Part shown: positions 29,957-57,431 of the stretch, in pieces
How positions within the stretch are numbered: position 1 is the stretch's first letter
How the letters are laid out: each line of letters opens with the position of its first letter
Source of the DNA: Deroplatys truncata
Taxonomy: Eukaryota; Arthropoda; Insecta; Mantodea; Mantidae
Assembly (NCBI GenBank): GCA_030765065.1
Contig: CM060990.1
Location: 669,692,118 to 669,756,117, forward strand
DNA length: 64,000 nt
Reading direction: 5' to 3'
Position numbers and translations under genes: made by a program
The notes under the pieces: generated by a model
The model's input: only the letters and a program-made list of their open reading frames with translations
The model's database searches: none
Told to the model about the DNA's origin: nothing

Positions 29957-29957
29957 T

Positions 29958-31155: not shown

Positions 31156-31249
31156 TGAATTTTTCAGTCATCTGATTCTACGTTTCCAACCCTGTTTATC
31201 ATTCTTTTTCATTTACTCCTTATTTTCCTCTTTTGTTATCTTCATGTTT

Positions 31250-32449: not shown

Positions 32450-33017
32450 TACAGGGTGGGCCATTTAAGTTGAGACTGTACAATATCTCCAAAACTAAGC
32501 GTTGTAAAAGAAATGGCTTGAATAAAAGTTGTTTGATATTATGGGGGAAAGTAAATGCCATGAGCTATGTTTCGTTTGGAGGCCGTTATGATGGTCATTT
32601 TAGGGTCAATTGAATTTTTTGAAATAGGGTTCTACATTTTGTATGTTGTTTTCTCACCAGAAAATGGCTTTAAAAAGCTGTTTATTTTGTGATGAGGAAT
32701 AAAGAAACAAAATAAAAAATATTGGTTCCAAATTACGAAACGTAAGTTGACCCTCAAATGACCATTCTTGGTTGGGCTAACCATTCGTTGCGCTTTTCGT
32801 AAACAGCCATTCAAAATTTTGTTGTTATTTACATTGATGTAAGAAAAAATGTTGTTTAGTTTATGAGGAGTGAGAAAGCAACATAAAAAAGGTAGGTTCC
32901 CATTTTAAAAAATTTAATTTATCCTAAAATGACCATCACAACGTACTCTAAATAAAACACGACTAATGGCATTTACTGTCCCCAATAATATCAAGCAACT
33001 TTTATTCAAGACTTTTT
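32450..33017 (+). mobile_element. Foldback MITE M1, copy 4 (one end cut)
   Basis: Starts TACAGGGTGGGCCATTTAAG, contains the long middle block ('cttttcgtaaacagccattc') and loses its right inverted arm at about 33,017, where the arm B homology also stops. Confidence 0.75.
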
Positions 33018-34193: not shown

Positions 34194-34974
34194 CGAAAAT
34201 AGAGCGCAGCAATGTTAGACGCTAGACAAGGCGATCATACAACATTTTGGAGCCAATAAGAGGAAAGAAAAAATAATCGAAATAGCAATTAAGAACTTAG
34301 AAAAATCACGTGCCTAGAAAAAGGGCTGTGCTCAAATAGAGTATTGATGTGAAATAGAAAATTTTCTATGAGCGGAGCACAGTTTCAGACGGGGTAATTT
34401 TGTTACTTCGTGTCGATCATTTGTAAGGGAAGGTTGCGTCACAGTGTGTCAGAATTATTAGAACAAATTACAGTGTTAAATTAAACTATTTAGTCATAAT
34501 GTTACATTACGGTAAAGCAAGATTCAGGAAGAGAAGGCAGCAATAGCACGCAAAAATCATGGGCGCATTCATAAGTGTTAATTATGTTCGTGTGGATTTA
34601 ACGCATAAAGGACAAAGCCAAGGAGAACACGTCTTTCATTTTCCCTGGTCCACATTTACATGAGATATCCATCCTCTACCTGAGCCGGCAAAAGTCAACT
34701 CCTTTACAATAATCCTCTCCGTCACCAAGTTACCTACCATCACCAGAACCGCTACAAAATGGCACTCAACGTGCTTATCCACCCACACATCGCACCTTCC
34801 TAACCGCCATACTTGCAACAGCAGCAGAGAACGTCTTACGGGATTAATGCACCTCGCAGCCAAAGCCAAAGGAGGAAAACAAACCACCTGGAGGTAACAT
34901 CACGCAGCAACCTCTAACACAACATTTACCACCTTCAGTGGTTGTTTCAGTGAAACAACCACAGCAGACAGTGG

Positions 34975-36516
34975 ATGATTTTACGTAGTGGAAGAGTTCT
35001 TAGCTCCACCATGACTGATTTTCCAGCAGAGGAACAGCCACTGACGCTATCCAATCAGCTGGAAAAATACCCGGGATCCCAGGCAACCCTGGAAACCATG
35101 TTGCAACAGGGGCTAATACAGTTTCAGTTACTGGAGACGAGACGAACATCTCAGGTAGCGTCTCAAGAAGAGGCTTCCACTCACAACTGGTAGCCCAAGG
35201 GGAAACACTAACTACTGTTGAGTCGACACTGACAGTTCAAAGGGAAACATTAAGTACTTTAGAGTCTACACTAACAGCACAAGGGAAAACATTAAGTACT
35301 TTTGAGTTTACCATAGCATCACAAGGGACAACACTAACTACTTTGAAGCCGACAGTAGCCTCACAAGGGGAAACCCTCCATCCCCAACTTGTCACCCAAA
35401 GGGAAACACTAAACACGGAAGATAAATTCACTGCACAAGTGAACCAACTACAAGCGCAAATGGCATCACAGGTGTGCTTGCTAAGAAAGCGCAAATACTC
35501 ACAAAAGGGGAAACTTTAGAAACCCAGATCATGAGAAAACTACAACAACAGTTCCAGGAACAACAAAACAGTTCCCAAGAACACGCGAGCCGACAAGCTC
35601 AAACAATAGAAGCCATCAAAGTAGGACAGACCTCCTTACGTTTGGAAGTGATTACTGTGTGCCACGAGGTGCATGAGGCATGCTCTGAGATGGAATCATT
35701 GAGGAAAAGGGTTATTCAACTGTCGGGAACAAATGCCGCGAGGCTATTAATAAAAATATGCAAACAGAAATCGAGAGAATTACAGCCTCAGTACAGGAAA
35801 CAGCTTCCCAAGCCGCCGCAACTCACACGTCAGCTGTAGCTCAAACTGAAATGCACTACGTGATTTGGCACCGGTAAAGGTAGCATTGTAACAGGGTTAA
35901 GGGCCCACAACAAATGGTATCGCCAGTAACCTCACCAGATCGCGTGAACTGGGTAGCGCGGGGATGCAACACGCGACGCCGAGGTTCTTGCACCACTGCA
36001 AACACATATGTCTAACAGTGTAGTTAAAAAGTGCACCTCCTACTCAAGTGTGAATGTTTTTCCCATACACTATAATCTTTTAAATGAGATCGCGGTGCCT
36101 CAATTCAATGATGCGAGGGGTTGATGTTGATGTATTTTGGGTTGTGGGTGGTTACTTTGAGCTAAAACAAGCACCGGAAGGTCTGAAATTATTGATTGTT
36201 AAGAAGCGTTTGCAGGGACGGGCGTTCTTTTTGGATCCGCCTAGACATAGGAGACCACGCCACCTATGGGGACTTTAAGAACTTATTTTTAGCTAAGTAC
36301 TGGAACACGGCAACACAGAACGCCATAAGAATCAAAATAAACAATGGTAAACATATGCCAGGACTAGGTCATTATTCATTACATCTTAGATCTGGCACAG
36401 CAAAGCTTACTTCTAGACCCGCCTATGAACGATGCGGAATTTGTTCAGCGACAGTACAGCACTTCCTTGATGCAATAAGAAACAATTTAATAGTAGCACG
36501 ATCGCTGAGACACTAG
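34975..36516 (+). pseudogene. gag-like region of the Ty3/Gypsy-type fossil
   Basis: The first part (34,975 on) begins 'MILRSGRVLSS' and is rich in Gln, Thr and Glu. A 42-bp tandem repeat at about 35,196-35,400 encodes 14-residue, two-heptad units, which suggests a coiled coil. A Gln-rich helical stretch follows (35,474-35,839). The later part (about 36.1-36.5 kb) has 'VKKRLQGRAFF' and 'TYGDFKNLFLAKYWN', which resemble the capsid-type domain of retrotransposon gag proteins. It is a broken fossil and no function is expected. Confidence 0.6.
35196..35400 (+). repeat. 42-bp tandem repeat within gag-like region
   Basis: The motif 'caaggggaaac' or a close variant recurs at 35,196, 35,238, 35,280, 35,322 and 35,364, exactly 42 bp apart. 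A shorter step to 35,397 follows. Confidence 0.85.
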
Positions 36517-37005
36517 ACCAACAAAGCGGTAGCTCAGAAATTAAGGCATCAGCAGAAAATTTCAGTGGGTTGAGGGCACAACCCACATATACACAAAGAC
36601 GGCAACAACCATACCACCACGGTGTCAGGTTTGAACGCCACAACCCACAATATCACAATTACGGGTAAGAACGCCCATCCTCACGGGGCTCTCGGAAAAA
36701 CCCAACAGGTAACCATTGCGTGCAGTATGTACGGGACAGGGGTCAACGACCACAACGCCCACAATGGTGAGACAGTCCCTCGGGCCACGAAGAATACAAC
36801 AACCGGACGAGTAAAAGACAAAGCCCACCAAGGGAAAACAATCATATCTCATATACACGCCCGGAATTTAACGTGGATGCTCCACGATGGCCATCTGACA
36901 ACCGCCGACTACAGGATGGCAACACGGCACAAAATTCGATGCCAAACAGGAGCGGGTACCATGATGCAAATCAGACATGACACAAATTACCATGATAGCC
37001 TCTAC

Positions 37006-37227
37006 TCCGCCGGAGGACGATGGGTTTTTTTTCGGGTGTAAAAATTCATAGAATGGCTTGTTTTGGAAGGAAAGTAAAACTGATGGTCCCGTGTCCAAGT
37101 TACGGCATGTAAAAGAACCTCAAGCCAGATAAAGAGACCTCTGAGCAAAAATACCGGTCTTTCTCTTCCAATATAGAATGGGACGCTAAGGACCACAGCA
37201 GTTAAAGCAATAAAACTCAATTTAGAC
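37006..37227 (+). mobile_element. SINE S1, copy 3, inside the Ty3/Gypsy-type fossil
   Basis: 'ctccgccggaggacgatggg' to 'gcaataaaactcaattta', 5'-truncated, in the same orientation as the host element. Confidence 0.8.
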
Positions 37228-37379
37228 AAGACACGAAGATACCATACCAGCGCAATACAGGGGCACTATTAGAAAAACAACATGGTTCAACCCGGAGGAC
37301 AAGGGCCCCGCATATTATGACGACACACGTGGTGGCGCATCCGATACAGACAACAAAATGGCGTTAAACTAGAACGGGT

Positions 37380-38140
37380 TCAAGATACACTCCCGTCATC
37401 GAATTTCCTAGCTCTTTGTGACACAGGGAATAACAATTACATAAAACATTCAAATTGGACAACGCATACAGAAATTGACACAATGATTCACACTGCTGAT
37501 AGGTAGGTGGAGACGATGAATTCAAATATACATCGAGGGCAAGGTATTAAATGCCGTAATTTATTTGGGAGCCTCGGCGTCATTATGCAGTTTTATCAAC
37601 ATACGCCCATAGGGGTTAAAATGCAGGCACATCTAGTAAAAAATGTGTAGGCTATATTGGCTATAGGATGTAAAGAAAATAGTATACCAGAAGTTATGCT
37701 ACCTTTTCAAATAAACCAAGTGCAGTTAGAATATAAATTTCTGGTTGTACCACACTTGGTTACCCAAATATTACTCGGCAGCGATTATTTGTTTGACTTT
37801 AGGGCTCACGTCAGTTATAATAAATTAGAATCAAGTTTGAAAACAGCTGATAAAATAACAGTTAGAGCCCAGTTTCTGCAAGCGACATGGACCGCTCCAG
37901 AGCCTACTGATGAGGAAAAAGAGATTCATCAGAACCGGTTTTTTTTTGTACAAGTGGTCAGAATGGATCTTGGCAAGTTGACGACTTTACACAGAAGATG
38001 AGTTAGCAGAGATGCATACAGATAAGGACGAGAATTGTGACGATGCCGAGATAGAATTTAATTGTTTCGAAAACGGCAGAAGGGAAGAGACATTCAGGCC
38101 CGCCGAATCACCCTCAAATTACGCTGAGACACACTTATAC
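37380..38140 (+). pseudogene. Protease-like region of the Ty3/Gypsy-type fossil
   Basis: The segment includes 'LALCDTG', a possible aspartic-protease active-site block, and a later stretch with 'FLVVPHLVTQILLGSDYL', the conserved ILG.D..... block of retrotransposon proteases. An acidic linker follows. It is broken. Confidence 0.6.
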
Positions 38141-38174
38141 AAAACTCAACCACTGAGCTCATTAAGGTCCATAT

Positions 38175-38604
38175 TGTGGCGTATTAGGTAATTAGTAGCT
38201 ATTGTCTTGACAGACACATTATTGCGTCGTATTGGCGACAGCATTGTTGGGGTAATTCTTTCGGCTTTGAGTTTTGAAGTTCCGTCCGGCATGACGCTCT
38301 CCAGTCCTAGCTAGCGGGTCTAGCGAGGAACTCGTGTGTGTAGCATCTCCCCTCATTTATTTCTTAATCTCTTTTGTGTGCGATGTAGGGGCACCGTGTT
38401 TATATTGAATAAGCCACAGTTAATGTGATTAATGTGAATTCTGTGTATTTTGTATAAAGTATCCCACGCCTGCACTGGAATGTGATGTTCAAAGTTCTGG
38501 TCCCCTCGCTGCCTCTGCAGCGACGTCTCTCAATGTGCATGCTGGGGTAATTTCAATTTAATATTTTAGCTGGAAACCTTTTGGCCTCACACCAGTATGT
38601 AACA
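38175..38604 (+). mobile_element. Solo LTR inserted in the Ty3/Gypsy-type fossil
   Basis: A 430-bp segment starts TGTGGCG and ends TGTAACA, flanked by ATAT on both sides (38,171-38,174 and 38,605-38,608). It interrupts the region between protease-like and RT-like parts. TG...CA ends and a 4-bp target duplication fit an LTR left by recombination between two LTRs. It shows no similarity to the LTR-like part at 34.2 kb, so it comes from another family. It looks whole as a solo LTR. Confidence 0.75.
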
Positions 38605-38890
38605 ATATAGAGGCCAAGGTGAATGCCATGGAAATCCTCACAGAGGAACATAAACAAACTAATCCAAATATTATGGTCCAACAAAGGAACATTTTTAGAG
38701 GAAACCGGTTGCTGCAATAGCTTTGTATATTCATTTGCGATCAAAGAAGGCCCCCCTGGAAGTACAAATTCCCGAACATTCCCTTGCTGGTTACAAGAAG
38801 CAGTAAACGAAACTATACAGGAAATGTTCGAACAAAACATTATACAACCCTCAAATTCCCCTTATATTAACCACGTCTGCATCGTCAAAA
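38605..38890 (+). pseudogene. Start of Ty3/Gypsy reverse transcriptase (fossil)
   Basis: Plus-strand readings contain 'SFVYSFAIKEGPPGS', 'SRTFPCWLQEAVNETIQEMF' and 'NIIQPSNSPYINHVCIVK', matching the conserved N-terminal part of Ty3/Gypsy RTs ('...R.yP.p......v..qi.emle.giI.PS.SPy.sp.vlVkKkdg'). The catalytic palm is absent. It ends at the outer edge of inverted duplication 2. Confidence 0.75.
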
Positions 38891-39264
38891 GAGCTAAGGA
38901 AATTGACAACACCACAGCAAAGAGAAGGAAATAAGGGAAAGCATGACCAGACACACAGGTGAGATGGAAGGACACAGCGAAATAAGCGCAAAACAAGCCA
39001 CAAGAAGACATGGAACCCGAAAAAGAACGATATGGTTTTGTATAAGGCACATAAGAAATCATCACTCCTAAAGAAAGAGTCAAATAAATATACTTATTGT
39101 GCATTGGTCCAGCGCAAATTAATAGAAGCGACCGTTCCTTTGAGCTTCAGAACGTGCGCACCAAGAAAATTATCGGCCATACAATTTGGCTTTATTAAAC
39201 CGATTACCTGCCACATGACGGGCTCAAAATCCATAATAAATCATAGGCATTGCCTCCTGCATCA

Positions 39265-40195
39265 ATATATAAATAATCTGATGTGTTACACTCACATGAA
39301 CTTCTCTACTCTGGTACAAACTCTTATTCTCCATCTATTTCAGATTAATCGAGATAAACATTTGCAGAAACGATCTTTTGACATGCAAAGAGAATTACAT
39401 TTTACACATAGCGACCAGTTCTAAAAATATTTGACTATCACTTAAGGCGTACTATGTGCCCCTTGTTTTGTATTTGCAAGGGCAATATAGAAATACAGCA
39501 GCCTTTAAGCATACACATCTCTCTTAATAGCTGGTTGCTAGGTGCACCATCATTCTCTTTGCCACAGATTAATACTCTTTGCATATCCAAGACAAAAAAA
39601 TGAATAACTAATTCCCATTTGAGAAAATAAGTATTTAAGAATTTAAGGGAATAACAAGCAATATCTCGAATATGGTTCACTCAACAAAAAAATGTATATG
39701 ACATAAATTGTGTATTTTAACGGGATCTACATTTTTTATGTAGTAAACGTTTGTCTATCTGTTATGGTTTACCAGTTATGCATAAGTTGTTCACAATGAA
39801 GAATACTTTTGGAGACATTCCCAGAAAATTCAAGATATACATTTTATTTGTCATTAAAATATCTTAAATATATAATATTTTAATCAAATCGTTGGAGCCA
39901 TTTTTGAGAAAATTAAAATGTTCCATGTAATGGGTTATTTGGGGTGGGGGTATTTTCTTGAAAACCTTCGTGTCGCATCTCTGGAAGATACTGAACCTAA
40001 ATACCAAGTTTGGTGATTATCCGACTGTTCGTTTCTGAGTTATGCTGTTCACAGACACACACACGGACATGTTTCCAAAAATGCTATTTTTGCATTCAGG
40101 GGTCTCAAAACACATATTTCCGGTAAAATCTCGGTATCGAATTTTTGGGTGGAATACAATACTTCCCCTATTTACTATACGTAGTAGAGAAAGTA
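39265..40195 (-). repeat. Dispersed repeat R1, copy 7 (arm 1)
   Basis: On the plus strand it starts 'aatctgatgtgttacactca' and ends 'gtagtagagaaagtaaaa'. It is one of the most complete copies. Its GT run is short, unlike the partner in arm 2. Confidence 0.85.
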
Positions 40196-40888
40196 AAACG
40201 GAAAGAAACTGTATATAGTATGTTGAAACATAATTTAAATGCCATAAATTATAAGCAGCAAAAATGTCGTGAAAAGACGCGCAATAAAACACAGTTGAGT
40301 TTTGATCACTATAGATAGTAAAGTATTTTTCCCCAGTATATGTCCATGTACATATTATATTAAACATATTTTAGTGCAAATACCCATTCAACAAATCGAG
40401 TTACAAGGTGGTTAAAGTGTAATTGTTTTTTTAAATGTCCAAAATTAGCTTATGTAGGTAAAATTGTTTATTGCCATAAAATATGCCCCAAAAGAGATAA
40501 CCTTTAACGTGTGTTAAGAAAATCCTGTTACTTTAGAATATAAAATGTCATGTATAGGAAGTAAATGTTGTAGGACCCCAAAACAAGCTCCAAACGCAAC
40601 AATTTAACATTAGCATTATTCAAATTGATTTCTTTTTGCCGTTGTGTTTGGTGCAGGGTAACTCAATGTGACCACTTGTCACATATGTCTGTATAAAGTT
40701 TATATGTATACCTAGGAATGTGTCATTGTATGGTTTTAAGAATGAATCCCTGAGCTACATTTGTATCTATTTAAGGAAGGTTGAATTTATGCTTTACAAT
40801 AGTTAGGGACATTACTTTATACAGTCAATCAGGCAGTGGGTTTCCTAAGCGCTCCAAACTCAAATGCATACCCGGGGAGGTGCAATGT
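40196..40888. other. Unassigned block, shared by both arms
   Basis: Matches 50.94-51.62 kb in reverse. No domain was recognised, and the 116-codon minus-strand frame runs into R1 and is probably chance. Confidence 0.45.
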
Positions 40889-41960
40889 CGTCCTCCGTGG
40901 TGTAGTGGTCACCATGCTAGCTGCTAGTTCCCGAGATCCGCGTTCAAACTCGGCGGAGGGCGATGGATTATTTTGGGCGTAAAAATCCTTAGCTGGCTTC
41001 CTTCTGAAGCGAAATAAAGCCAGTGGTCCCGTGTCGTACATTTACGGCACGTAAAAGAACCTCAATCCTAATGAACAGGCCTCTGAGCAAAATTACCGGT
41101 CTTTGACACCTAATATAGAATGGGACCAGTTAAGGGACAAGGTATTCTGAAATGGTCAAAATCACATTTTCTGTTTTACGCGGTAATATAGCTCTATTGT
41201 TTCCAATTTCAGAACATATATACTTTTGTGGTGTTAAGAGGTCTTTAAGACATTTAAATACCATTTAAATGCTAGTCTGCATTCTTTTAAAGCTGTCATT
41301 CAACTTTTGCTGAAGAAATCCAAGAATGAAGGTGCAGATGATTACGACCCTGGAATGTACTGAAGTGCGTCAGAATGTTAATGCTGAAACTTTAAATTCA
41401 GTTTTCTCAAAACAACATTTTTAGAAATTTTCAGTATATGTATACAAACATAGTTAACTTTCTGAAACACAATCATAATTTTATAATGTATATTGTGATA
41501 TTAAGAAAGCAACAACATTGCAAATTTTCCACATCTTTACTTTTTTAACCTTGCAAATAATTTTTTTCAATTTCTAGTGAACTGATAAACATAACTAAAT
41601 AAATGAGATTCAGAAGATAGCTGAGTAGACTGAGAACAAGCATGCAAAAGTGTGATTCTGTATTAGAAGTAGTATCAGAGAAAAAGGTGCATGAATTCAC
41701 ATGTTTTAAGAGTGAATTTTATTATTTTTCTGATGAATGAAATAATTTTTACGGACTCAACTACATAAGTTATCATTGCAAACAACCACTTGAAATAATG
41801 ATAATAATCTATAGAATAATCCATAAAAGTTTCAGGAAACAATTTTAGAACTTTAAGAGTAATGGTAATTTAACACACTTAAGGTGTAATTCCCATGTGT
41901 TCAGGCTACCTTGTCCCCTTAAACCAGTTAACGAGCGTCCATAAATGAAACTAAGAACAA
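40889..41960 (+). mobile_element. SINE S1, copy 4, full-length head, split by a MITE
   Basis: This is the only S1 copy on the plus strand with a complete tRNA-like head: 'gtcctccgtggtgtagtggt' (A-box region) and 'cgcgttcaaactcgg' (B box), then the body to about 41,127. The last part, 'gagcgtccataaatgaaact', resumes at about 41.93 kb after the inserted MITE. Confidence 0.85.
41115..41935. mobile_element. MITE M2 inside SINE S1 (arm 1)
   Basis: About 800 bp with inverted ends GGGACAAGGTA and TACCTTGTCCCC. TTAA stands at both ends, which would suit a piggyBac-type target. An alternative reading is a 9-bp duplication close to ACCAGTTAA (ACCCGTTAA on one side in arm 2). It has no transposase frame. 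The partner in arm 2 spans about 49.84-50.69 kb. Confidence 0.7.
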
Positions 41961-42385
41961 AGAAAAAATGGTGAGGTTCAACCCTAAGTAGCCATGTATA
42001 CACAAAAAAGTGCGCCGACAAGGTACAGTGAAAGTGTTTGTGTGGTCAGTGCGCGTACGGATGATTAGAAGATTAGCAGCTTTAGTGAACAAGACTAAGT
42101 CGCTCACCAGCGTAAACAACATAACATATCCATATGAAAATATGGGTAACATTAAAAACATTGCATAGTTGCGAGAACTACATAGTGGCAACCCGGATAT
42201 GTACAATACAATCAGAATGTAAAGTAACAAATGTACAATTACACGCAGTTGAAATGTATGTAAATAACAAAAAAAGAAAGCTAAATCGCAAGACAAAATT
42301 TTGTATCAAATCAATTATTCATATATGATGTATGTTTTCTCTTAGAGGCATATTTTTGTAAACATCTGTTGTTGTAGTGTATATA
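41936..42385. other. Unassigned block with a shared 122-codon chance frame
   Basis: A 122-codon minus-strand frame (41,928-42,296) is kept in arm 2 (49,458-49,838). It starts in anonymous DNA and ends in the SINE tail, so I take it as a chance frame kept only because the arms are young. It is hydrophobic in composition. Confidence 0.5.
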
Positions 42386-43636
42386 CACTACGTGATCAAA
42401 AGTATCCGGACACCTGGCTGAAAATGACGAACAAGTTCGTGGCGCCCTCCATCGGTAATGCTGGAACTCAGTTTGCTGTTGGTGTATCCTTAGCCTTGAT
42501 GACGACGTTCACTCTCGCAGGCATACTTTCAATCAGGTCCTGGAAGGTTTCTTGGGGAATGGGAGCCCATTCTTCACGGTGTGCGGAACTGAGGAGAGGT
42601 ATCGATGTAAGTCGGTGAGGCCTGGCACTAAGTTGGCGTTCCAAAACATCCCAAAGGTGTACTATAGGATTCAAGTCAGGACTGTGTGCAGCCCAGTCCA
42701 TTACAGGGATGTTATTGTCGTGTAACCACTCCGCCACAGCCCGTGCAGTATGAACAGGTGCTCGATCATCGTGTTGAAAGATGCAATCGCCATCCCCGAA
42801 TTGTTCTTCAACAGTGAGAAGCAAGAACGTGCTTAAAATGTCAATGTAGGTCTGTACTGTGATCGTGCCACGCAAAAAAACAAGGGGTGCAAGCCCCCTC
42901 CAGGAAAAACACGACCACACCATAACACCACTACCTCCGAATTTCACTGTTGGCACTACACACGCTGGCAGATTGAGTTCACCGGGCATTCGCCATATCC
43001 ACACCCTACCATCGGATCGCCACATTGTGTACCGTGATTCGTCACTCCACACAACGTTTTGCCACTGTTTAATCGTGTAATATTGACGCTCCTTACACCA
43101 TGCGAGGCGTCATTTGGCATTTTCCTGCGTGATGTGTGACTTATGAGCAGCCGCTCGACCATGGAATCCAAGGTTTCTCACCTCATGCCTAACTGCCATA
43201 GTACTTGGAGTGGATCCTGATGCGGTTTGGAATTCCTGTGTGATGGTCTGGATAGATGTCTGCCTAGTACTCTTTACGACCCTCTTCAAATGTCGGCGGT
43301 CTCTGTCAGTCAACAGACGAGGTCGGCCTGTACGCTTTTTTGCTGTACATGTCCCTTCACGTTTCCACTTCACTATCACATAAGAAGCAGTGGTCCTAGG
43401 GATGTTTAGGAGTGTGGTAATCTCGCGTACAGACTTCTGACACAAGTGACACCCATACACCTGACCACGTTCGAAGCCCGTGAGTTCCACGGAACGTCCC
43501 ATTCTGCTGTTTCACGATGTCTAATGACTACTGAGGTCGCGGATAATGAGTACCAGGTATTAGGTGGCAGCATAATGCACCTAAGATGAAAAACGTATGT
43601 TTGTGGGGTTGTCCGGATACTTTTGATCACATAGTG
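42386..43636 (-). mobile_element. Tc1-type element T1, copy 2 (complete ends)
   Basis: CACTACGTGATCAAAAGTAT at 42,386 and the complement of CACTATGTGATCAAAAGTAT ending at 43,636, with TA on both sides (42,384-42,385 and 43,637-43,638). Length is 1,251 bp. The outer 80 bp lies beyond arm 1 homology, so the duplication edge cuts the element. Confidence 0.95.
42468..43502 (-). pseudogene. Tc1 transposase, one stop and catalytic Glu changed to Val (T1 copy 2)
   Basis: A cut-and-paste transposase of 344 residues counting the internal stop. It starts 'MGRSVELTGFERGQVYG' at 43,502 and ends 'VVIKAKDTPTAN'. The helix-turn-helix region and linker ('TGRPRLLTDRDRRHL') are intact. The first two catalytic Asp residues lie in 'MWSDESRYTMW' and 'FQHDDRAP'. 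The third position reads 'SPDLNPIVHLWD': Val replaces the Glu found in copies 1 and 3. One stop codon (TGA for CGA, a CpG-type change) follows 'ITQENAK'. Otherwise the frame is open. Either change alone should stop transposition. Confidence 0.9.
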
Positions 43637-45057
43637 TACGTATTTATTAAACAGATCGTAAGAACTACCCAAAGATAGACCGACAGACAAGATCGGGGGT
43701 GGAGAAGAGCAAGCTCTTGTAAGGAATACAAACACATCACGCAAAATCGAGGGTAGAAAGATTGTCAGTGGGTTTTTCAGGCGAGACATTAATTTTCCTC
43801 AAGGTGGAAAATGAAGGCCTCACCTGAAGGGCATATGGAGCTGGAACTCTCACTGCACCACTGGGCGGTAGCTGCTTACAACTTTTGTTTTGCCTACTCA
43901 GAGGGATTAAGTTACCGTGAAAAGGTCTATTGCTTAGGAGCTAGAAAATAGGAAATATTCACGAACACATAGATTAACAATTTATTTTAAAGTGATACAT
44001 CCATTCAAAATGCTTAAATCAGCTTGCTTTAACATTCTTTTAACAAATTACTATGCGATATTTTCTTTCGCTTTGTACAGTTAAAGTTGCCATATGAGTT
44101 TAAAGCTTTTGTAACAAAGCGACGAATACAATAAAGTTACATGAAATGCAAATGTCAATACTTCTCCGGTATAAAAATTTAGAAAGGCACCAAGAGTTAA
44201 AGATTAAATTTCAAACCTTACCGAATAAATTGTAAAAGATAATTTAGAAAAGGTCAAAACAACTCTTGGTGAATTATGCCGAAAATCTCGCTGTCACGTT
44301 GGCCAGTTGTTCCGCCTCGGTCCCTGGCGAAAAAGCGACTGCTTGTGTCTGTCTTCCCAGGAGTTGCTGGAACCGTCGGAGAGCGTGATGGCGCTAGCGT
44401 CAGTGGCGTGTTGCAAACCAGTCAATGATGAATGCCCATGATGCATTACGTGGTGAGGTGATGTCTTACGTCACTTATGGCGATATGTTGTTCGAAGCTT
44501 TGAATGTTGCTATCTCTGGTTATGAATGACGTCATCACTCCGAAGCATTGTGACGTGCTGGTTGCATGAGCCATGACCATGGGGGAGGCGAAAACGGCAT
44601 ATGGGGTAATAAAAATAAGAATAACCACCATAGCAGTAATGAGTAAAATAAAGTAATGTAGGCAAGAGAAAGAACTGAAAGATAAAGGCTTAACAAATAA
44701 ATACTAGCGTAGTAGATCAAGTGATAAGTAAGGTGAGAGAAAGGGACGATAAAAATAGAAAATAGAATAGAACTTAGGAAATAAGGGAATTAATGTGAAG
44801 AAAATTAAATAAATTGTAAAACAGATAAAACAAGGTAATTCCTCAAGGTGAGTTGGGCTCAGAAAATGAGCAAAGTTAGCAAACTGCAACGACAAGCATG
44901 AGGGGTGGTCATTAAGAACCTTTCAACATACAAAATAAATATTAGGTGATAGTGGAAAGCCCGTAGCAGGATGCTTCGAAAGTAGACAATACTTGGAAAT
45001 CCCACGTACACTTATGCGTAAATAAAACTCAGTGTAGCCGTAATAATAGGTACTTGG
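43637..45057. other. Spacer of duplication 2, left part; perhaps a solo LTR body
   Basis: No coding domain was seen. Because 45.06-45.35 kb matches the LTR-like segment of the 34-kb fossil, the preceding kilobase may be the rest of that LTR, but I cannot fix a TG start. 44.29-44.60 kb is locally GC-richer, with CRE-like 'tgacgtca'. Confidence 0.4.
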
Positions 45058-45345
45058 AGAAGGCGAACATACGACATTTTTAGGGCCCATAAGAGAAAAG
45101 GTAAGGTAATCGAAATAGCAGATAATAAATTAGAAAGATCACGTGCCTAGAAAAAGGACCGTGCTCAAATAGAATATGGGTGTAAAGTAGAAATTTCCCT
45201 ATGAGCGAAGCACAGTTACAGACGGGGTAACTTCGTTACTTCGTGTCGATCATTTGTAAGGGAAGGTTGCGCCACACGGTACCAGAAATGTTAGAGCAAA
45301 TTACAGTGTTAAATGTATTTAGTCATAATGTTACATTACGGCAGT
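45058..45345 (+). mobile_element. LTR-like segment related to the 34-kb Ty3/Gypsy-type fossil
   Basis: Matches 34,195-34,516 in the same orientation: 'atcacgtgcctagaaaaagg', 'cagacggggtaac', 'cgtgtcgatcatttgtaagg', and an end at 'cataatgttacattacgg'. Similarity stops just after, where gag leader begins in the 34-kb copy, so this is probably an LTR on its own. It is a fossil. Confidence 0.6.
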
Positions 45346-45939
45346 GGCGTAGCGTAAGAATAGACGTTGAGACTGAGTCTATCTAAATAAATTGTCAAGA
45401 AAATAAGTAAATTTTTAAACATACAAATAAAGACAGCTTCAAACAAGTGATGAAAAACTGATCAATACGATCACTTTCACCACTGCTTACCCCAAAGCCC
45501 CAACTCCTACTGCTACTTCGTGTCAGATTGTAGTGCTATGTACATAGGCAGCTTCGAAATCTCGTGATGCGGCAGCAAAGTCGAGTAGAAATTAGGGTAG
45601 CTGAGCGACTGCTAGTCTCATCAAGAGTGGAGTTGTAGGGTCAAGTCTTGTAATATGGCCACCAAAATTTATATTTGTAATTTAATTCAAAACCAATAGA
45701 AGGACAATGAACATTTCATGCGGAAGTTATACCCACATGCCTGTAAGGTAAGTATTATGTAGAATTGTAACTCAAATATAGTATTATTTTATTATGTATA
45801 ACTTTGTTTATAACAAGGCAGAATTGGCCATTTTAAAGGCCAGTCTTGTAATATGGTCACCTACAAAAAAGTATATTTTAGAGCACGATTCACATACAAA
45901 AACCTTAGCCTTCTTTCACCTGCACATTCTTTATGAAAC

Positions 45940-46060
45940 TAGACGCACATCTTGCACAGGACAAACACACTTCTCCGTCGTGGTCTTCGTTGAAGAGCCC
46001 ATCACAATATCCACATTAGAATCGCCTGTGCTGCATACAGATTCTTGTTCCTGTTTTCCT
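45940..46060 (-). pseudogene. Cys-rich C-terminal end of the pogo-like transposase
   Basis: The minus-strand reading shows 'KVKRKTGTRICMQHRRF' and then 'CGYCDGLFNEDHDGEVCLSC', with a stop between. Insect pogo-like transposases often end in a basic stretch followed by a C..C...C..C knuckle of this kind. It is separated from the main fragment by R1. Confidence 0.5.
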
Positions 46061-46064
46061 TTTT

Positions 46065-46990
46065 ACTTTCTCTACTACGTAGAGTAAGTAGGGGAAGTAT
46101 TGTATTCCACCCAAAAATTCGATACCGAGATTTCATCGGAAATACATGTTTTGAGACCCCCTGAATCCAAAAAAAACCATTTTTGGAAACATGTCCGTGT
46201 GTGTGTCTGTGTGTCTGTCTGTGTGTGTGTCTGTGAACAGCATAACTCAGAAACGAACAGTCGGATAAACACCAAATTTGGTATTTAGGTTCAGTATCTT
46301 CCAGAGATGCGACACGAAGGTTTTCAAGAACATCCCCCCACCCCAGAGTACCCTTTACATGGAAGATATTTCGAAAATTTTAATTTTCTCAAAAATGGCT
46401 CTAACGATTTTGATTAAAATATTATATGTTTAAGATATTTTTATGACAAATAAAATGTATATCTTGAATTTCCTGGGAATGTCTCCAAAAGTATTCTTTA
46501 TTGTGAACGACTTTTGCATAACTCGTAAACCATAAGAGATAGACACAATTTTACTACACAAAATTTGTAGATCGCGTTAAAATACACAATTTATGTCATA
46601 CACATTTTTTTTGTTGAGTGAACCATTTTCGAGATATTACTTGTTATTCCCTTAAATTTTTCAATACTTATTTTCTCAAATGGGAATTCCTTATTCATTT
46701 TTTTTTTGTCTTGGATATGCAAAGAGTATTAATATGTGACAAAGGGAATGGTACTGCACATAGCAACCAGCTATTAAGAGATATGTATGTGCTTAAAGGC
46801 TACTGTATTTCCAAATTGCCCTTGTAAATATATATTCCCGTTACGTCTACAAGAAACGTAGCAATAAGATAGAGTCTGCAAATGTTTATTTCGATTAACA
46901 TGAAGTAGATGGAGAATAAGCGTTTGTAAAAATTGTTTGTACAAGAGTAGAGAAAGTCATGTGAGTGTAACACATCAGATTTTTTAATTT
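46065..46990 (+). repeat. Dispersed repeat R1, copy 8 (in spacer)
   Basis: A nearly complete copy from 'tttactttctctactacgta' to 'agtgtaacacatcagatttt'. It interrupts the pogo-like transposase between 'SQKATILT' and the basic C-terminal part. Confidence 0.85.
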
Positions 46991-47026
46991 TATTGCTCTT
47001 CTTTCATTAATATGTACCGGTAAAGT

Positions 47027-47548
47027 CAGAATGGTGGCTTTCTGACTTCTCCCTGTGTTTTTCTTCCTTGGTGCAGAAGGCCAAGGGCACAGTCGCTCCA
47101 GGAGAGGAGCGTCATCTCTGCTGCTGCCAGAGCCTCCAACATATTCTTCATTAATTGATGAACCTGTTGATGGTGTTTGAGCTCGCTCACTTTGACCATT
47201 TCTAAGTTGCTTGCCTATTTGATCCTAAGTTCCCGGAGTAGGATCTCTTTCAACTGATCTGCTTGTTTGGTCAGGCGGGCCTGGGACAGGGTCCTGAGCG
47301 TTCAGCTTCTCATTTTTTTGACTATGGAACACCTCCGATGGGGGATAGGAGGATTCAGGAATAATTCCTGGGTTTAGAGGCGCCAGCCCGTAGGCACGAA
47401 ATCCACTAACTCCATCTCAACGGGACAAGCCTTTCCCCATGCTTGAGAAAGCATCTGAAGAAGACCGTCAACCTGATTTTACAGCATCTACTGCTTCCTG
47501 CATTCTCTGGATATCCCAGCTCTCTCGCTGTGTTCTCCTGACTCTCAT
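47027..47548 (-). pseudogene. pogo/Tigger-like transposase remnant: HTH start fused to the end of the DDE domain
   Basis: The minus-strand start is 'MRVRRTQRESWDIQRMQEAV' at 47,548, a pipsqueak-type helix-turn-helix opening that normally binds transposon ends. About 26 codons later the reading jumps to the end of the DDE domain: 'LLQMLSQAWGKACP' and, one frame over, 'GVSGFRAYGLAPLNPGIIP'. A low-complexity tail follows, ending 'TGRSQKATILT', the usual 'gks.vLTssPyk' position. The centre with all catalytic Asp/Glu residues, several hundred codons, is missing. Stops are also present. Psq-family domesticated genes such as jerky-like ones were considered; the deletion and stops argue for a dead transposon. 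Confidence 0.75.
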
Positions 47549-47559
47549 TTTAAGTGCCT

Positions 47560-48210
47560 ACAAATATCAAGCAATAAATAAAGTAACTTTCATTACTTCC
47601 TAAAAATAATTATTTGTAATGCATTTAAACATTGCAGAAACTAGGCCTCCTTCTTGTTAAGTCTAAGCATAAATAAATAAATTTTAAAAAAAGAAAATGA
47701 AGGAAAAGAAGAAATAAAATTAGATAAATCCTCCAATCACTCTGGACATCGTTAATACATTCAGTATTATGCTACACAAATTCACTCCCTGTAAAAACAA
47801 ACAAAAAAAAAATAATAAAGTCCAACGAGTCTTGTAAAACGGCCAAGCGGATGGCCATATTACAAGAGAACACATGTTCATTGACTTCAAGACCTAGTTA
47901 GCAGGTAGCAGCACCAATCATAATTGCGGCAACACGCTTACAGTCCTCGAAGGTTACACTTTTACTAACGCTATCCATATTTTGTCATTTAAAACTCGTA
48001 TTGCTATAATAAATTATGGCTCACAGACACAGGAAAACAAAATGGCTTCGTTTGGCTTATCTTGTAATACGCGATGTGATATATTTCCTTATAGCATACA
48101 CAATACTGGCAGCTGTAAACAAAGCGCAGCACACATACAACTAATATGGCGATGCTTCTGCAGCACTCTGTCGTTTCTATCAGCAACTAGGAGGGCGGCA
48201 GAATTTAAAT
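47560..48210. other. 5' part of the pogo-like element and unassigned DNA
   Basis: A-rich non-coding sequence with two subterminal-type motifs. The 109-codon plus-strand frame (47,982-48,311) runs into Tc1 copy 3 and is chance. Confidence 0.4.
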
Positions 48211-49381
48211 ACTGGTACTCATTATCCGCGACCTCAGTAGTCATTAGACATCGTGAAACAGCAGAATGCGACACTCCGTGGAAATCAGGGACTTCGAACG
48301 TGGTCAGGTGATTGGGTGTCATTTGAGTCAGAAGTCTGTACGCGAGATTTCTACACTCCTAAACATCCCTAGGTCCACTGTTTCTGGTGTGATAGTGAAG
48401 TGGAAACGTGAAGGGACATGTACAGCATAAAAGCGTACAGGCCGACCTCGTTTGTTGACTGACAGAGACCGCCGACATTTGAAGGGGTCGTCAAGAGTAA
48501 TAGGCAGAAATCTATCCAGGCCATCACACAGGAATTCCAAACTGCATCAGGATCCATTCCAAGTACTATGGCAGTTAGGCGTGAGGTGAGAAACCTTGGA
48601 TTCCATGGTCGAGCGGCTGCTCATAAGCCACACATCACGCAGGAAATTGCCAAACGACGCCTCGCTTGCTGTAAGGAGCGTCAACATTACACGATTGAAC
48701 AATGGCAAAACGTTGTGTGGAGTGACGAATCACGGTACACAATGTGGTGATCCGATGGCAGGGTATGGGTATGGCGAATGCCCGGCGAACGTCATCTGCC
48801 AGCGTGTGCAGTGCCAACAGTGAAATTCGGAGGTAGTGGTGTTATGGTGTGGTCGTGTTTTTCCTGGTGGGGGCTTGCACCCCTTGTTATTTTGCGTGGC
48901 ACGATCACAGTGCAGACCTACATTGACATTTTAAGCACGTTCTTGCTTCTCACTGTTGAAGAACAATTCGGGGATGGCGATTGCATCTTTTAACACGATG
49001 ATCGAGCACCTGTTCATACTGCACGGGCTGTGGCGGAGTGGTTACACGACAATAACATCCCTGTAATGGACTGGGCTGCACACAGTCCTGACTTGAATCC
49101 TATAGAACACATTTGGGATATTTTGGAACGCCGACTTCGTGCCAGGCCTCACCGGCCTACATCGATACCTCTCCTCAGTTTCGCACTCCGTGAAGAATGG
49201 GCTGCCATTCCCATAGAAACCTTCCAGGACCTGATTGAAAGTAAGCCTGCGAGAGTGAACGCTTTCATCAAGGCTAAGGGTGGGCCAACACCATATTGAC
49301 TTCCAGCATTACCGATGGAGGCCGCCACGAACATGTACATCATTTTCAGCCAGGTGACCGGATACTTTTGATCACGTAGTG
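48211..49381 (+). mobile_element. Tc1-type element T1, copy 3 (one end missing)
   Basis: The right end, the complement of CACTACGTGATCAAAAGTAT, ends at 49,381 next to TA. The left inverted repeat is absent because the duplication edge lies within the element. Flanking sequence beyond the right end matches arm 1, which shows that this copy arose by segment duplication and not by transposition. Confidence 0.9.
48266..49299 (+). pseudogene. Tc1 transposase pseudogene (T1 copy 3)
   Basis: The start 'MRHSVEIRDFERGQV' is in another frame from the rest, so there is at least one frame change early on. Then three stretches in one frame are separated by stops. They are 'MAVRREVRNLGF...WSDESRYTMW' (48,568-48,750), 'MPGERHLPACAVPT...GDGDCIF' (48,778-48,993) and 'MAEWLHDNNIPV...KGGPTPY' (49,030-49,299). 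'SPDLNPIEHIWD' keeps the catalytic Glu that copy 2 has lost. It cannot encode a full protein. Confidence 0.9.
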
Positions 49382-49839
49382 TACATACACTACAACAACA
49401 GGTGTTTACAAAAATATGCCTCTAAGAGAAAACATACATCATATATGAATAATTGATTTGATACAAAATTATGTCTTGCGATTTAGCGTTCTTTTTTGTT
49501 ATTTACATACATTTCAACTGCGTGTAATTGTACATTTGTTACTTTACATTCTGATTGTATTGTACATATCCGGGTTGCCACTATGTAGTTCTCGCAACTA
49601 TGCAATGTTTTTAATGTTACCCATATTTTCATATGGTTATGTTGTGTTGTTTACGCTGGTGAGCGACTTAGTCTTGTTCACTAAAGCTGCTAATCTTCTA
49701 ATCATCCGTACGCGCACTGACCATACAAACACTTTCACTGTACCTTGTCGGCGCACTTTTTTGTGTATACATGGCTACTTAGGGTTGAGCCTCACCATTT
49801 TCTCTTTGTTTTTAGTTTCATTTATGGACGCTCGTTAAC

Positions 49840-50690
49840 TGGTTTAAGGGGACAAGGTAGCCTGAACACATGGGAATTACACCTTAAGTGTGTTAAATTA
49901 CCATTACTCTTAATGTTCTGAAATTTTTTCCTGAAACTTTTATGGATTATTCTATAGGTTATTATCATTATTTCAATTGGTTGTTTGCATTGATAACTTA
50001 TGTAGTTGAGTCCGTAAAAATTATTTCATTCATCAGAAAAATAATAAAATGCACTCTTAAAACATGTGAATTCATGCACCATTTTCTCTGATACTACTTC
50101 CAATACAGAATCACACTTTCGCATGCTTGTTCTTAGTCTAATCAACTATCGTCTGAACCTCATTCATTTAGTTATGTTTATCAGTTCACTAGAATTTTAA
50201 AAAAAATATTTCCAAAGTTAAAAAAGTAAAGATGTGGAAAATTTGCAATTTTGTTGGTTTCTTAATATCACAATATACTTTATAAAATTATGATTGTGGT
50301 TCAGAAATTGGACTATGTTTGTATACATATATTGAAAATTTCAGCTCTCTACCTCTCATACTTTCTGAGAAAATGGTACATAAGTGTCCAAAACTGTTGT
50401 TTTGAGAAAACTGAATTTAAAATTTGAACATTAAAAATTCTGAAACACTTCAGTACATTCCAGGGTCGTAACCATCTGCACCTTCATTCCTGGATTGCTT
50501 CAGCAAAGGTTGAATGACAGCTTTAGAGGAATGCAGACTAGCACTTAAATGGTATTTAAATGTCTTAAAGACCTCTTAACCCCACAAAAGTATATATTTT
50601 CTGAAACTGGAAATAATAGAGATTCTATTACCGCATAAAACAGAAAATGTGATTTTCCATCATTTTAGAATACCTTGTCCCTTAACGGGT
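49840..50690. mobile_element. MITE M2 inside SINE S1 (arm 2)
   Basis: Partner of 41,115-41,935. The ends read TTAAGGGGACAAGGTA and TACCTTGTCCCTTAA, and 'TTAACTGGT' and 'TTAACGGGT' lie directly outside or overlapping. Confidence 0.7.
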
Positions 50691-50945
50691 TCTTAGCGTC
50701 CCATTCTATATTAGGTGTGAAAGACCGGTAATTTTGCTCAGAGTCCTCTTTATCACTTGAGATTCTTTTACGTGCCGTACATGTACGACACAAGCCCACA
50801 GGCTTTACTTCGCTTCCGAAGGAAGCCATGCTAAGGATTTTCACGCCCGAAAAAAATTCATCGACCTCCGCCGGGTTTGAATCCGGATCTCGGGAACTAG
50901 CAGCTAGCATGGTGACCACTACACCACGGAGGACGACATTGCAGC
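50691..50945 (-). mobile_element. SINE S1, copy 5 (arm 2)
   Basis: Reverse copy of the 40.89-kb SINE, including the full tRNA-like head near 50.87-50.94 kb. Its tail lies beyond the MITE at 49.81-49.84 kb. Confidence 0.85.
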
Positions 50946-51619
50946 TCCCCGGATATGCATTTGAGTTTGGAGTTCTTAAGAAACCCACTGCCTGATTGAC
51001 TGTATAAAGTAATGTCCCTAACTATTGTAAAGCATAAATTCAACCTTCCTTAAATAGATACAAAAGTAGCTCAGGGATTCATTCTTAAAACCATACAATG
51101 TCACATTCCTAGGTATACATATAAACTTTATACAGACATATGTGACAAGTGGTCACATTGAGTTACCCTGCACCAAACACAACGGCAAAAAGAAATCAAT
51201 TTGAATAATGCTAATGTTAAATTGTTGCGTTTGGAGCTTGTTTTGGGGTCCTACAACATTTACTTCCTATACATGACATTTTATATTCTAAAGTAACAGG
51301 ATTTTCTTAACACACGTTAAAGGTTATCTCTTTTGGGGCATATTTTATGGCAATAAACAATTTTACCTACATAAGCTAATTTTGGACATTTCAAAAAACA
51401 ATTACACTTTAACCACCTTGTAACTCGATTTGTTGAATGGGTATTTGCACTAAAATATGTTTAATATAATATGTACATGGACATATACTGGGGAAAAATA
51501 CTTTACTATCTATAGTGATCAAAACTCAACTGTGTTGTATTGCGCGTCTTTTCACGACATTTTTGCTGCTTATAATTTATGGCATTTAAATTATGTTTCA
51601 ACATACTATATACAGTTTC

Positions 51620-51765
51620 TTTCATTTTTACTTTCTCTACTAGGTATAGTAAGTAGGGGAAGAATTGTATTCCACCCAAAAATTCGATACCACGATTTCA
51701 CCGGAAATATATGTTTGAGACTTCCTGAATCCAAAAAAAGGATTTTTGGAAACATGTCCGTGTGT

Positions 51766-51826
<61 letters not shown>

Positions 51827-52640
51827 TGTGAACAGCATAACTCAGAAACGAACAGCCGGATAATCACCAAATTTGGTATTTAGGTGCAGTATCTTCCAGA
51901 GATGCGACACGAAGGTTTTCAAGAAAATACCCCCACCCCAGATAACCCATTACATGGAACATTTTTCGAAAATTTTAATTTTCTCAAAAATGGCTCTAAC
52001 GATTTTGATTAAAATATCATATATTTAAGATATTTTTATGACAAATAAAATGTATATCTTGAATTTTCTGGGAATGTCTCCAAAAGTATTTTTCATTGTG
52101 AACGACTTTTGCACAACTGGTAAACCATAAGAGATAAACAAAATTTGACTACACAAAAAATGTAGATTGCGTTAAAATACACAATTTATGTCATATACAG
52201 TTTTTTGTTGAGTGAACCATTTTCGAGATATTACTTGTTATTCCCTTAAATTTTTCAATACTTATTTTCTCAAATGGGAATTCGTTATTCATTTTTTTGT
52301 CTTGGATATGCAAAGAGTATTAATCTGTGGCAAAGAGAATGATGCTGCAACTAGCAACCAGCTATTAAGAGATATGTCTAGGCTTAAAGGCCACTGTATT
52401 TCTATATTGCCCTTGCAAATACAAAACATGGGGAACATACTACGCCTTAAGTGATAGTCAAATATTTTTAGAACTGGTCGCTATGTGTAAAATGTAATTC
52501 TCTTTGCATGTCAAAATATCGTTTATGCAAATGTTTATCTCGATTAATATGAAATAGATGGAGAATGAGAGTTTGTACAAGAGTAGAGAAAGTCATGTGA
52601 GTGTAACACATCAGCTTTTTTATATATTGATGCAGAAGGC
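51620..52640 (+). repeat. Dispersed repeat R1, copy 9 (arm 2)
   Basis: From 'tttactttctctactaggta' to 'gtgtaacacatcagc'. It is paired with copy 7. It contains the expanded GT run. Confidence 0.85.
51760..51826 (+). repeat. (GT)n microsatellite within R1
   Basis: About 30 GT dinucleotides with two single-base interruptions. The same site in arm 1 (about 40,058-40,068) has about five. Confidence 0.95.
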
Positions 52641-53344
52641 AATGCCTATGATTTAGTATGGATTTTGAGCCCTTCATGTGGCAGGTAATCGGTTTAGTAA
52701 AGCCAAATTGTATGGCCGATAATTTTCTTGGTGCGCGCGTTCTGAAGCTCAAAGGAACGGTCGCTTCTATTAATTTGCGCTGGACCAATGCACAATAAGT
52801 ATATTTATTTGACTGTTTCATTAAGAGTGATGATTTCTTGTGTGCCTTATACAAAACCATATCGTTCTTTTACGGGTTCCATGTCTTCTTGTGGCATGTT
52901 TTGCGCTTATTTCGCTGTGTCCTTCCATCTCACCTGTGTGTCTGGTCATGCTTTCCCTTATTTCCTTCTCTTTGCTGTGGTGTTGTCAATTTCCTTAGCT
53001 CTTTTGACGATGCAGAGGCATCACTGATTTAGCTGACGCACTAAATCACGTTTCTGCAATAGCCTGGCTTGGTGACACACTCTCAGCCGGTACATTTACC
53101 TACTTTGGTGCCAAATCTGTGAATCCAGGAAAAATAAATCAGAAACTTAGAGGTGAAATAATACAGCACATGCAAATATTATTGTTCTTTTCTTCCATCT
53201 GTTAGTGTTTACGGAAGAAAAACTCGAGTCATGAGCATAGCTTATAGGTATACCGTACAACTAGTTTCCGTAATATTGATATAAAATCCTTTAAAAGAAG
53301 GTTTTCAGCGCAAAATATAATTCTATAAAAAGGGAAGCAAAGAA
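52641..53344. other. Arm 2 outer block, then unpaired flank
   Basis: 52.64-53.016 kb matches 38.876-39.26 kb. 53.017-53.344 kb is unpaired and unassigned. Confidence 0.5.
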
Positions 53345-56033: not shown

Positions 56034-57431
56034 CACTGTCGTTTTCAAAATTGCATCACCAAGAAAGAATTTCCGTAATAACCCCAAACTTGGTGGAAGT
56101 GTAGAAGAGTGTGGAAGTAATACGTGATTAGGTTTGCAGAGAGATGGGGTACACATAGGCCGAGCAGAGCCCTCTCGTGTCGGTCCGACAAGGTCAGTGT
56201 TGCGCCCAGTGTAGACAGTGCAGAGCTGTCAAACAAGGTGAAAACAATAAAGTGAGTGCCAGTATGCCTCGTCAACGTCAAAGGGAGCAATATCGGCATG
56301 TGAGTGAGTTCGAACGGTGCAGAATGATCGGTCTCTGGGAAGCGGGTTTGTCATACCGTGACATTTCGGCTCTTACAGGGCATGCTACTAAGACAGTGAT
56401 GCGTGTGTGGAAGCAGTGGATAGATGAAGGTCGTACTCAGCGAAGAGCGAGTACTGTACCACGGAACATGACCACAGCACGGGATGACCGTCATCTTGTC
56501 CGCATGGCCATAACGGACCGTACAGCTTCATCCACTGTGTTGGCTCGACACTGGAGCACTGCAACAGATGTGAACTTGTCTGCATCAAAGGTTCGTCGCC
56601 GTCTGCTGCAAGTTGGACTGGTTGCATGCATGCCATTACGTCGGCTTCCATTGTCCAAAAACCACAAGCTCCTCCGAATGCAATGGGCACTTGAACACCG
56701 TCACTGGGGTGCTGAATGGCAAAAGGTAGTCTTTTTGGACGAGTCCCGCTTCAACGTGTTCTACAGTGATGGCCGCATACGTGTCCGGCGGTACCGTGGT
56801 AAGCGCAACCTGGAGGGCTGTATTGTTGAACGGCATAGCGGACAAACACCAGGTGTGATGGTATGGGGCGCCATTGCTTACAACAATCGATCTCGCCTCC
56901 TACGAATTGAGGGCACTTTAAACAACAACCGGTACCTAACGGTGGTTGTAGAGCCTAAGGTACTCCCCCTGCTTCAGGCATCTCCACAGGCCACATTTCA
57001 ACAGGACAATGCCCGGCCACATATTGCGAGGAATGTAGAAGCCTTCTTCGAAGAGCGACGGGTACCATTGCTTCCCTGGCCTGCACGTTCGACTGAAATC
57101 GAAGATGTCTGGGATATAGTTGGTCGGCACCTGGTGCATCACGGTCCTCCAGTAAACAGTGTCACGTATTTGTGGGCTCGAATACAAACTGTGTGGAGAA
57201 AAATCCCTCAGGAACTTATTCAGAACCTTTTTGATTCAATGCCACGGCGTACAGCAGCTCTAATTGCAGCCCATGGAGCCCACGGCAAATACTGAATATT
57301 AGGGCGCAAAAGTCATGTATAGATTTGAAAAGTTTATCATTTGTTACTTGTCATGTACCTAACCTGTGGTATTAAATTCATTGAATTCATGCGTTTCCTT
57401 CTTGGTGTTGCAATTTTCACAAACAGCAGTG
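56034..57431 (+). mobile_element. Tc1/mariner element T2, full length
   Basis: Ends CACTGTCGTTTTCAAAATTG (56,034) and the complement of CACTGCTGTTTGTGAAAATT, ending at 57,431, flanked by TA on both sides. Shared inner end block: 'aaattgca.caccaagaa'. Length is 1,398 bp. The single frame inside is uninterrupted. It shares no ends with T1, so it is a separate family. This is the youngest-looking autonomous-size DNA transposon in the window. Confidence 0.95.
56264..57295 (+). CDS. Tc1/mariner (IS630-type) transposase, uninterrupted, with a 3-residue gap at the catalytic Glu
   Basis: 343 codons from the ATG at 56,264. In-frame GTG/upstream codons exist, but 'MPRQRQREQYRHVSEFE' is the start usual in this family. 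It encodes the enzyme that cuts the element out and joins it at TA. The N-terminal third has two helix-turn-helix motifs ('RMIGLWEAGLSYRDIS', 'KVRRRLLQVGL') for binding the inverted repeats. The catalytic Asp residues lie in 'VVFLDESRFN' and 'ATFQQDNARPH'. The Glu region reads 'WPARSTEIEDVWDIVG' where relatives have 'WPARSPD.SPIEHVWD.VG'. Three residues are missing and the remaining Glu stands 31, not 34, residues after the second Asp. The C-terminus is 'IAAHGAHGKY'. The gap probably kills catalysis although the frame is open. Splicing is not expected. Confidence 0.9.
   Translation: MPRQRQREQYRHVSEFERCRMIGLWEAGLSYRDISALTGHATKTVMRVWKQWIDEGRTQRRASTVPRNMTTARDDRHLVRMAITDRTASSTVLARHWSTATDVNLSASKVRRRLLQVGLVACMPLRRLPLSKNHKLLRMQWALEHRHWGAEWQKVVFLDESRFNVFYSDGRIRVRRYRGKRNLEGCIVERHSGQTPGVMVWGAIAYNNRSRLLRIEGTLNNNRYLTVVVEPKVLPLLQASPQATFQQDNARPHIARNVEAFFEERRVPLLPWPARSTEIEDVWDIVGRHLVHHGPPVNSVTYLWARIQTVWRKIPQELIQNLFDSMPRRTAALIAAHGAHGKY

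Follow-up and report, generated by a model that had tools for sequence, protein, structure and literature searches.

In human fold-back duplications, the single-copy spacer measures 766–70,466 bp (median 3,428), and 13 junctions carry 2–8 bp of inverted microhomology; a spacer simulation gave microhomology of at least 2 bp for 134 of 1,000 random spacers (excerpts of PMC3907307). Here we describe a pair of inverted arms in a 64,000-nucleotide stretch from the mantis Deroplatys truncata (assembly GCA_030765065.1, contig CM060990.1, positions 669,692,118 to 669,756,117 of the forward strand; hereafter the window, position 1 being its first letter). The locus resembles the human cases, as portrayed in those excerpts, in having a spacer of a few kilobases (4.65 kb), short inverted microhomology at the inner junction (4 bp) and loss of sequence past the break. 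The human duplications are of megabase size and accompany terminal deletions or translocations, whereas the mantis duplication is 4.8 kb long, interstitial and old.

Inverted arms that exchange sequence are also a feature of the human Y palindrome P6, for which the available portion of PMC3723533 gives 110-kb arms, 99.97% similarity and minimum tracts averaging 2068 bp; the mantis arms are 4.7 kb long and ~95% identical, and their tracts extend over a few hundred bases. A further likeness is to the hairpin RNA (hpRNA) loci of Drosophila simulans, inverted repeats of which one, hp-ODox2, has arms of BS2/Jockey transposon sequence (PMC10317233, in part). Those loci were recognised from Dcr-2-dependent small interfering RNAs together with a primary transcript, whereas the present locus is known from sequence alone. 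We favour, with a probability of roughly 80%, an origin by one interstitial inverted duplication within a nest of transposons, later patched by gene conversion from arm to arm. Genome scars of this type are known already; the present one, formed from transposons that are layered and mostly dead, is well preserved and unusually readable.

The inverted arms and their nested insertions

Comparison of the window with itself (BLAST) aligned the arms in two minus-strand pieces: 38876–40064 with 53016–51816 (94.4% identity) and 40050–43561 with 51774–48208 (93.1%), each with E = 0. The global alignment contains 247 mismatches in 4681 aligned columns (116 transitions, 131 transversions; Kimura two-parameter distance 0.0548) and 13 gap events spanning 132 columns. 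Forced alignment of 600 bases past each arm end gives identities of 36–47%, except in one 200-column block straddling the inner end (58%). Chance is excluded as an explanation by the length and identity of the match, and since the window has zero N, both junctions lie in gap-free sequence. The initial annotation had described arms matching over their whole length, with SINE (short interspersed nuclear element), MITE (miniature inverted-repeat transposable element) and Tc1 copies at the same relative places; this description holds, and its arm coordinates are correct within 5 bases.

Genome comparisons were made against the 4.29-Gb assembly of 818 contigs, in which the window lies on contig C16 (707 Mb). 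With 40196–40880 as query, for which all 17 candidate places were scored, whole-length matches at 99–100% were confined to the two arms; no other candidate exceeded 90% over the whole query, and the longer matches outside the arms were ~72–82% identical. Among the 40 candidates scored of 8665 for the query 38876–39876, only the two arms matched the first 382 bases, although relatives of the element that hosts arm 1 (element X), compared separately, matched parts of that segment at 74–82%.

Element X is one dispersed, decayed element across the region, with relatives mostly 73–85% identical; the comparison drew on 7 distinct relatives of 40196–40880, represented by ten loci, L020 and some later loci being compared in part. 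A repeated stretch of X (34225–34512 and 45057–45341) looks, from sequence comparison, like parts of two long terminal repeats (LTRs). The element was labelled gypsy-like by eye only, and two of its frames had no Pfam match. Outside the window, 10 of 14 X loci lie on C16, which makes up 16.5% of the assembly (binomial p = 7.7e-6), a count that the C16-derived query may bias.

Within arm 1, X is interrupted by the high-copy element N1, by a SINE-like element that is itself split by the MITE N3, and by a Tc1-type element; each of these occupies the equal place in arm 2. N1 has ends that are mostly fixed across copies, with further copies at 51625–52621 (arm 2) and 46060–46985 (spacer). An R1 copy had been proposed for both arms by the initial annotation, a name that drew no support from the comparisons made; the frame 39032–39424, the sole N1-overlapping frame scanned, had no Pfam hit, no search having been aimed at R1. 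The arm 2 copy of Tc1 runs from 49380 to 48212 and lacks ~79 bases at one end.

Empty insertion sites were read directly in relatives of X (five distinct loci tried, requiring at least 40 of 60 matching bases on each side): for N1 in L018, for the SINE with its MITE in L014 and L018, for Tc1 in L014, and for N5, a further insertion outside the arms, in L011, L014 and L016. Locus L014 crosses the N1, SINE plus MITE and Tc1 sites with at most a few bases between the flanks. As N1, SINE, MITE and Tc1 stand at matching places in arm 2, the arms duplicate one nested structure; they form an inverted segmental duplication, oppositely oriented and with the pre-existing insertions common to both.

Direction of copying and the junctions

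Alignment to the relatives of X shows arm 1 to be the original and arm 2 its derived inverted copy. Relatives run unbroken through 38876 (L016 over 38607–39242, L018 over 38606–39268), the arm 1 Tc1 is complete and X resumes beyond 43640. In relatives, X also continues beyond arm 1 up to position 45341, so that its continuity covers the X part of the spacer. In arm 2, Tc1 is cut at 48208–48212; since the element is complete in arm 1 and cut in arm 2, the arms end inside Tc1.

At the inner junction (J1), transposon Y meets Tc1 ~79 bases short of the Tc1 end. The J1 microhomology (Table 1) has its pairing partner in TATT at 43558–43561 of the arm 1 Tc1, and inverted microhomology is present at one junction only. 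In all six Y relatives inspected (7 fetched), Y extends ~50 bases past 48211 and ends in an inverted terminal repeat, after which comes TA. At the outer junction (J2), the six relatives inspected of the truncated element Z all go on leftward with sequence unlike the window, four of them matching the window up to 53018. Element W, interrupted by Y at ~45637, extends further in both relatives inspected, and its remainder was not found in the 44.5–56.5 kb interval. Truncation of Y, W and Z therefore indicates that sequence was lost at the insertion point of arm 2.

Table 1. Coordinates of the inverted duplication, its junctions, the elements involved and the low-divergence tracts (window positions)
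Feature	Position	Strand	Evidence or remark
Arm 1, original copy inside element X	38876–43561	+	Alignment to arm 2; X relatives through 38876; X again after complete Tc1
Arm 2, derived inverted copy, both ends cut	48208–53016	-	Alignment; partners truncated at both junctions
Spacer: Tc1 end, X, N5, X, element W, element Y	43562–48207	.	
Junction J1, microhomology AATA common to Y and Tc1	48208–48211	.	
Junction J2, X joined to truncated element Z	53016–53018	.	
Element X, decayed LTR-type retroelement with nested insertions	34225–45341	+	Piecewise matches to 7 distinct relatives
N1, high-copy element of ~930 bases in X	39271–40198	.	Self-comparison, genome matches; missing from X relatives
SINE-like element in X, split by MITE N3	40886–41968 (end about)	+	Empty in L014, L018
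MITE N3 inside SINE-like element	~41131–41925		Inverted ends TTAAGGGACAAGGTA..., by eye
Tc1-type element, complete in arm 1	42386–43640	-	HTH_Tnp_Tc3_2 and DDE_3 (Pfam); empty in L014
N5, high-copy element in X, outside arms	43854–44602	.	
Element W, interrupted by Y, remainder missing	45345–45637	.	
Element Y, terminal inverted repeat (TIR) transposon with N1 inserted, ~50 right-end bases missing	45636–48211	.	
Gene-conversion tract within Tc1, 296 bases	42662–42957 (arm 1 coordinates)	.	
Low-divergence tract, probable gene conversion	40201–40844	.	4 mismatches in 644
Low-divergence tract, possible gene conversion	41853–42364	.	8 mismatches in 511; starts inside MITE

Uneven divergence, gene conversion and relative age

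The X pieces differ between the arms by 2.8%, 1.6% and 1.9%, and the nested elements by 6.6% (N1), 9.1% (SINE), 6.7% (MITE) and 6.6% (Tc1); pooled, the mismatches are 29/1484 in X against 218/3197 in the nested elements. CpG decay was rejected as the source of this unevenness, because the non-CpG mismatch is still 1.05–2.45% in X against 6.1–8.2% in the nested elements. None of 2000 shuffles reached the observed minimum of 4 mismatches in 600 columns. Four low tracts were called by a two-state model fitted over a coarse parameter grid, namely 38876–39194 and the three listed in Table 1.

When one arm overwrites the other, the donor's changes become common to both arms and are missing from other family members. 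In Tc1, changes common to both arms and missing from 15 relatives occupy 6 of 293 columns in the low tract against 2 of 873 in the rest (Fisher p = 0.004); arm-private changes number 2 in the low tract against 56 in the rest, a comparison biased by the choice of tract, whereas the shared-change counts are free of that bias. The fraction of columns that vary among the relatives is 0.314 in the low tract and 0.296 in the rest, so that the low tract is not constrained. The clustering of Tc1 mismatches was reached by 9 of 5000 shuffles with 250-base windows and by 75 of 5000 with 150-base windows. Conversion in the Tc1 tract is well supported by this pattern. In the X tracts it is likely; these hold 5–6% shared private changes and 41–47% of their columns vary among relatives, so X is not slow-evolving, but their shared changes are indistinguishable from any that predate the duplication.

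The Tc1 copies of the two arms resemble each other no more than random pairs do, which raised the possibility that copies elsewhere in the genome had overwritten the nested elements. This can mostly be rejected: of 176 polarised arm-specific changes in N1, MITE and Tc1, 140 are private. The other 36 include 15 of the 39 on the arm 1 Tc1 against 1 of the 34 on the arm 2 Tc1, an imbalance that we attribute putatively to the use of arm 1 as the query for relatives.

The relative age of the duplication can be read from the same elements. The two Tc1 copies are 93.6% identical to one another; against 15 other genomic copies, found with arm 1 as query among the 40 places scored of 12,296 candidates, the arms average 93.6% and 93.8%, and those 15 are mutually 95.3% identical. 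Outside the converted tract, the 2 shared private columns stand against 24 and 32 private per arm, and this scarcity of shared changes places the duplication soon after the Tc1 insertion. Private changes shared by both arms number 19 in the MITE, 8 in Tc1 and 5 in N1; because the MITE holds 19, the duplication is younger than the MITE. It is also younger than X, in which the two LTR-like ends show 39 differences in 284 positions. The initial annotation's ‘young inverted duplication’ therefore needs to be taken in a relative sense: it followed soon upon the Tc1 insertion, but the nested elements now differ by 6.6–9.1% and the Tc1 copies are no closer to each other than to the 15 others. An inverted duplication that took its nested transposons along is supported, and to that description we add the direction of copying.

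Course of events, alternative explanations and neighbouring repeats

Proceeding from what the alignments show directly (the arms, the direction of copying, the truncated partners, the microhomology and the conversion signature in Tc1), we infer a break, fold-back pairing and an order of steps. A double-strand break would have occurred close to the right end of transposon Y. After resection, the 3′ end at 48211, with AATA as its last bases, would then have folded back onto the same-strand TATT (43558–43561) in the recent Tc1; alternatively, a replication fork may have switched template at 43558–43561, which would have left an identical trace. Backward synthesis to 38876 would give the observed order of parts, and the new end would have been joined to Z past the break, at the cost of the Y right end, the remainder of W and the left portion of Z. 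The nested elements would later have diverged by ~6–9% between the arms, whilst short tracts were copied from arm to arm. The features of the junctions agree with break-induced fold-back or template-switch copying.

Both J1 partners are cut near a transposon end, within ~50 (Y) and ~79 (Tc1) bases. A transposase may have made the break by cutting Y at its right end or close by, the end then folding into a just-arrived Tc1, although we regard this as unlikely. If true, inverted duplication on this very large chromosome would be driven by transposon ends, and the same reading would also explain why the window contains another inverted pair, an older one (described below).

Several observations weigh against a single fold-back duplication followed by conversion. 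J1 lacks one Tc1 base right after the microhomology, J2 is without clear microhomology, and a 4-bp match at a single junction is weak alone, given 0–4 bp by chance in the simulation cited above (PMC3907307, in the excerpted text). The clustering of mismatches is weaker outside Tc1, being reached for SINE plus MITE by 124 of 5000 shuffles (250-base windows) and 1686 of 5000 (150-base), and for N1 by 294 and 2352 of 5000, respectively. The low tracts coincide with the X pieces, and just 55 of 4680 label rotations fit as well, so that the division into X and nested elements may carry its own meaning and a difference in rate may apply outside Tc1. The analysis, furthermore, covered one assembled sequence, which carries the duplicated allele.

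The coincidence with X is the point of departure for an explanation without gene conversion, in which X is slow or constrained, the nested elements evolve faster and the mosaic reflects rate. The pooled contrast between X and the nested elements accords with it, as does the gain from the labels (28.3), which matches that of a free two-state model (27.8). We nonetheless consider it unlikely: one low tract lies wholly within Tc1, where there is an excess of shared changes and family variability is normal, the X low tracts are themselves variable among relatives, and removing CpG alters little.

In principle, the second arm could have been made or distorted by an assembly error involving haplotypes or palindromic reads, or by over-correcting repeats of high copy number, as the evidence is the assembled sequence and the high-copy elements diverge more than low-copy X, which over-correction of noisy reads could produce. 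Such an artefact, or an assembly collapse, is quite unlikely because the arms are 5% divergent, carry arm-specific indels and have different flanks, and because arm 2 is truncated at both ends, with two truncated partners. The predominance of private over borrowed changes in N1, MITE and Tc1 and the gap-free window argue against it as well.

Perfect runs of 21 bases or more between the arms number 60 and add up to 3017 bases, so that a transcript crossing both arms, if there is one, could form double-stranded RNA. A functional source locus for hairpin RNA or PIWI-interacting RNA might be envisaged on this basis, transposon-derived hairpin loci such as hp-ODox2 being known in D. simulans (PMC10317233, in part). 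This is very improbable, given the 4.65-kb spacer, the patchy, 5% divergent arms and no evident selection beyond the duplication itself; nothing examined here points to a function, and the locus needs none for its explanation. Cruciform extrusion, also raised by the initial annotation, would be unlikely with such a spacer. Between the paired 130-codon frames, 12 residues out of 130 differ, in line with the dozen or so first reported. A coding function was rejected for them, as they have no Pfam match and the frame crosses the X/N1 border; it probably arose by chance.

That one set of elements was inserted twice, independently and in opposite orientations, or that the arm is one large transposon present twice, is barely credible: every part examined is repeat-derived and the arms' Tc1 copies are no closer than random pairs, but N1, SINE, MITE and Tc1 are equally placed in both arms and missing from the X relatives, 40196–40880 is 99% identical between the arms alone, both arms hold common private changes, and the arm ends lie inside X and Tc1, not at element termini.

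The layered insertions act as a relative clock, from which the original copy, the timing relative to each transposon, the losses at the junctions and later exchanges can be read. A single case alters no general view. If such pairs are common on the 707-Mb contig, a survey could measure the rate at which inverted copies arise from breaks near transposon ends, and could also gauge the speed of arm-to-arm conversion where the genome is very large.

The older of the two inverted pairs in the window (19669–24290 and 27290–33016) consists of eight collinear pieces of 79–87% identity. A high-copy SINE-like stretch lies at the equal place in both of its arms (22650–22858 and 29749–29958), and a Tc1 copy (28298–29539) interrupts the right arm only. 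The same right arm contains a tRNA-family match (31082–31154; 46.1 bits), the sole Rfam hit in the window at the gathering threshold, which may be a gene or the head of a SINE. Elsewhere in the window, an open Tc1-type transposase frame of 372 codons (56177–57295) matches HTH_Tnp_Tc3_2 above cutoff, with DDE_3 just under its cutoff (28.4 vs 28.6 bits), and a ladder of offset self-matches at 1727–2521 marks a tandem array whose period is ~57 bases.

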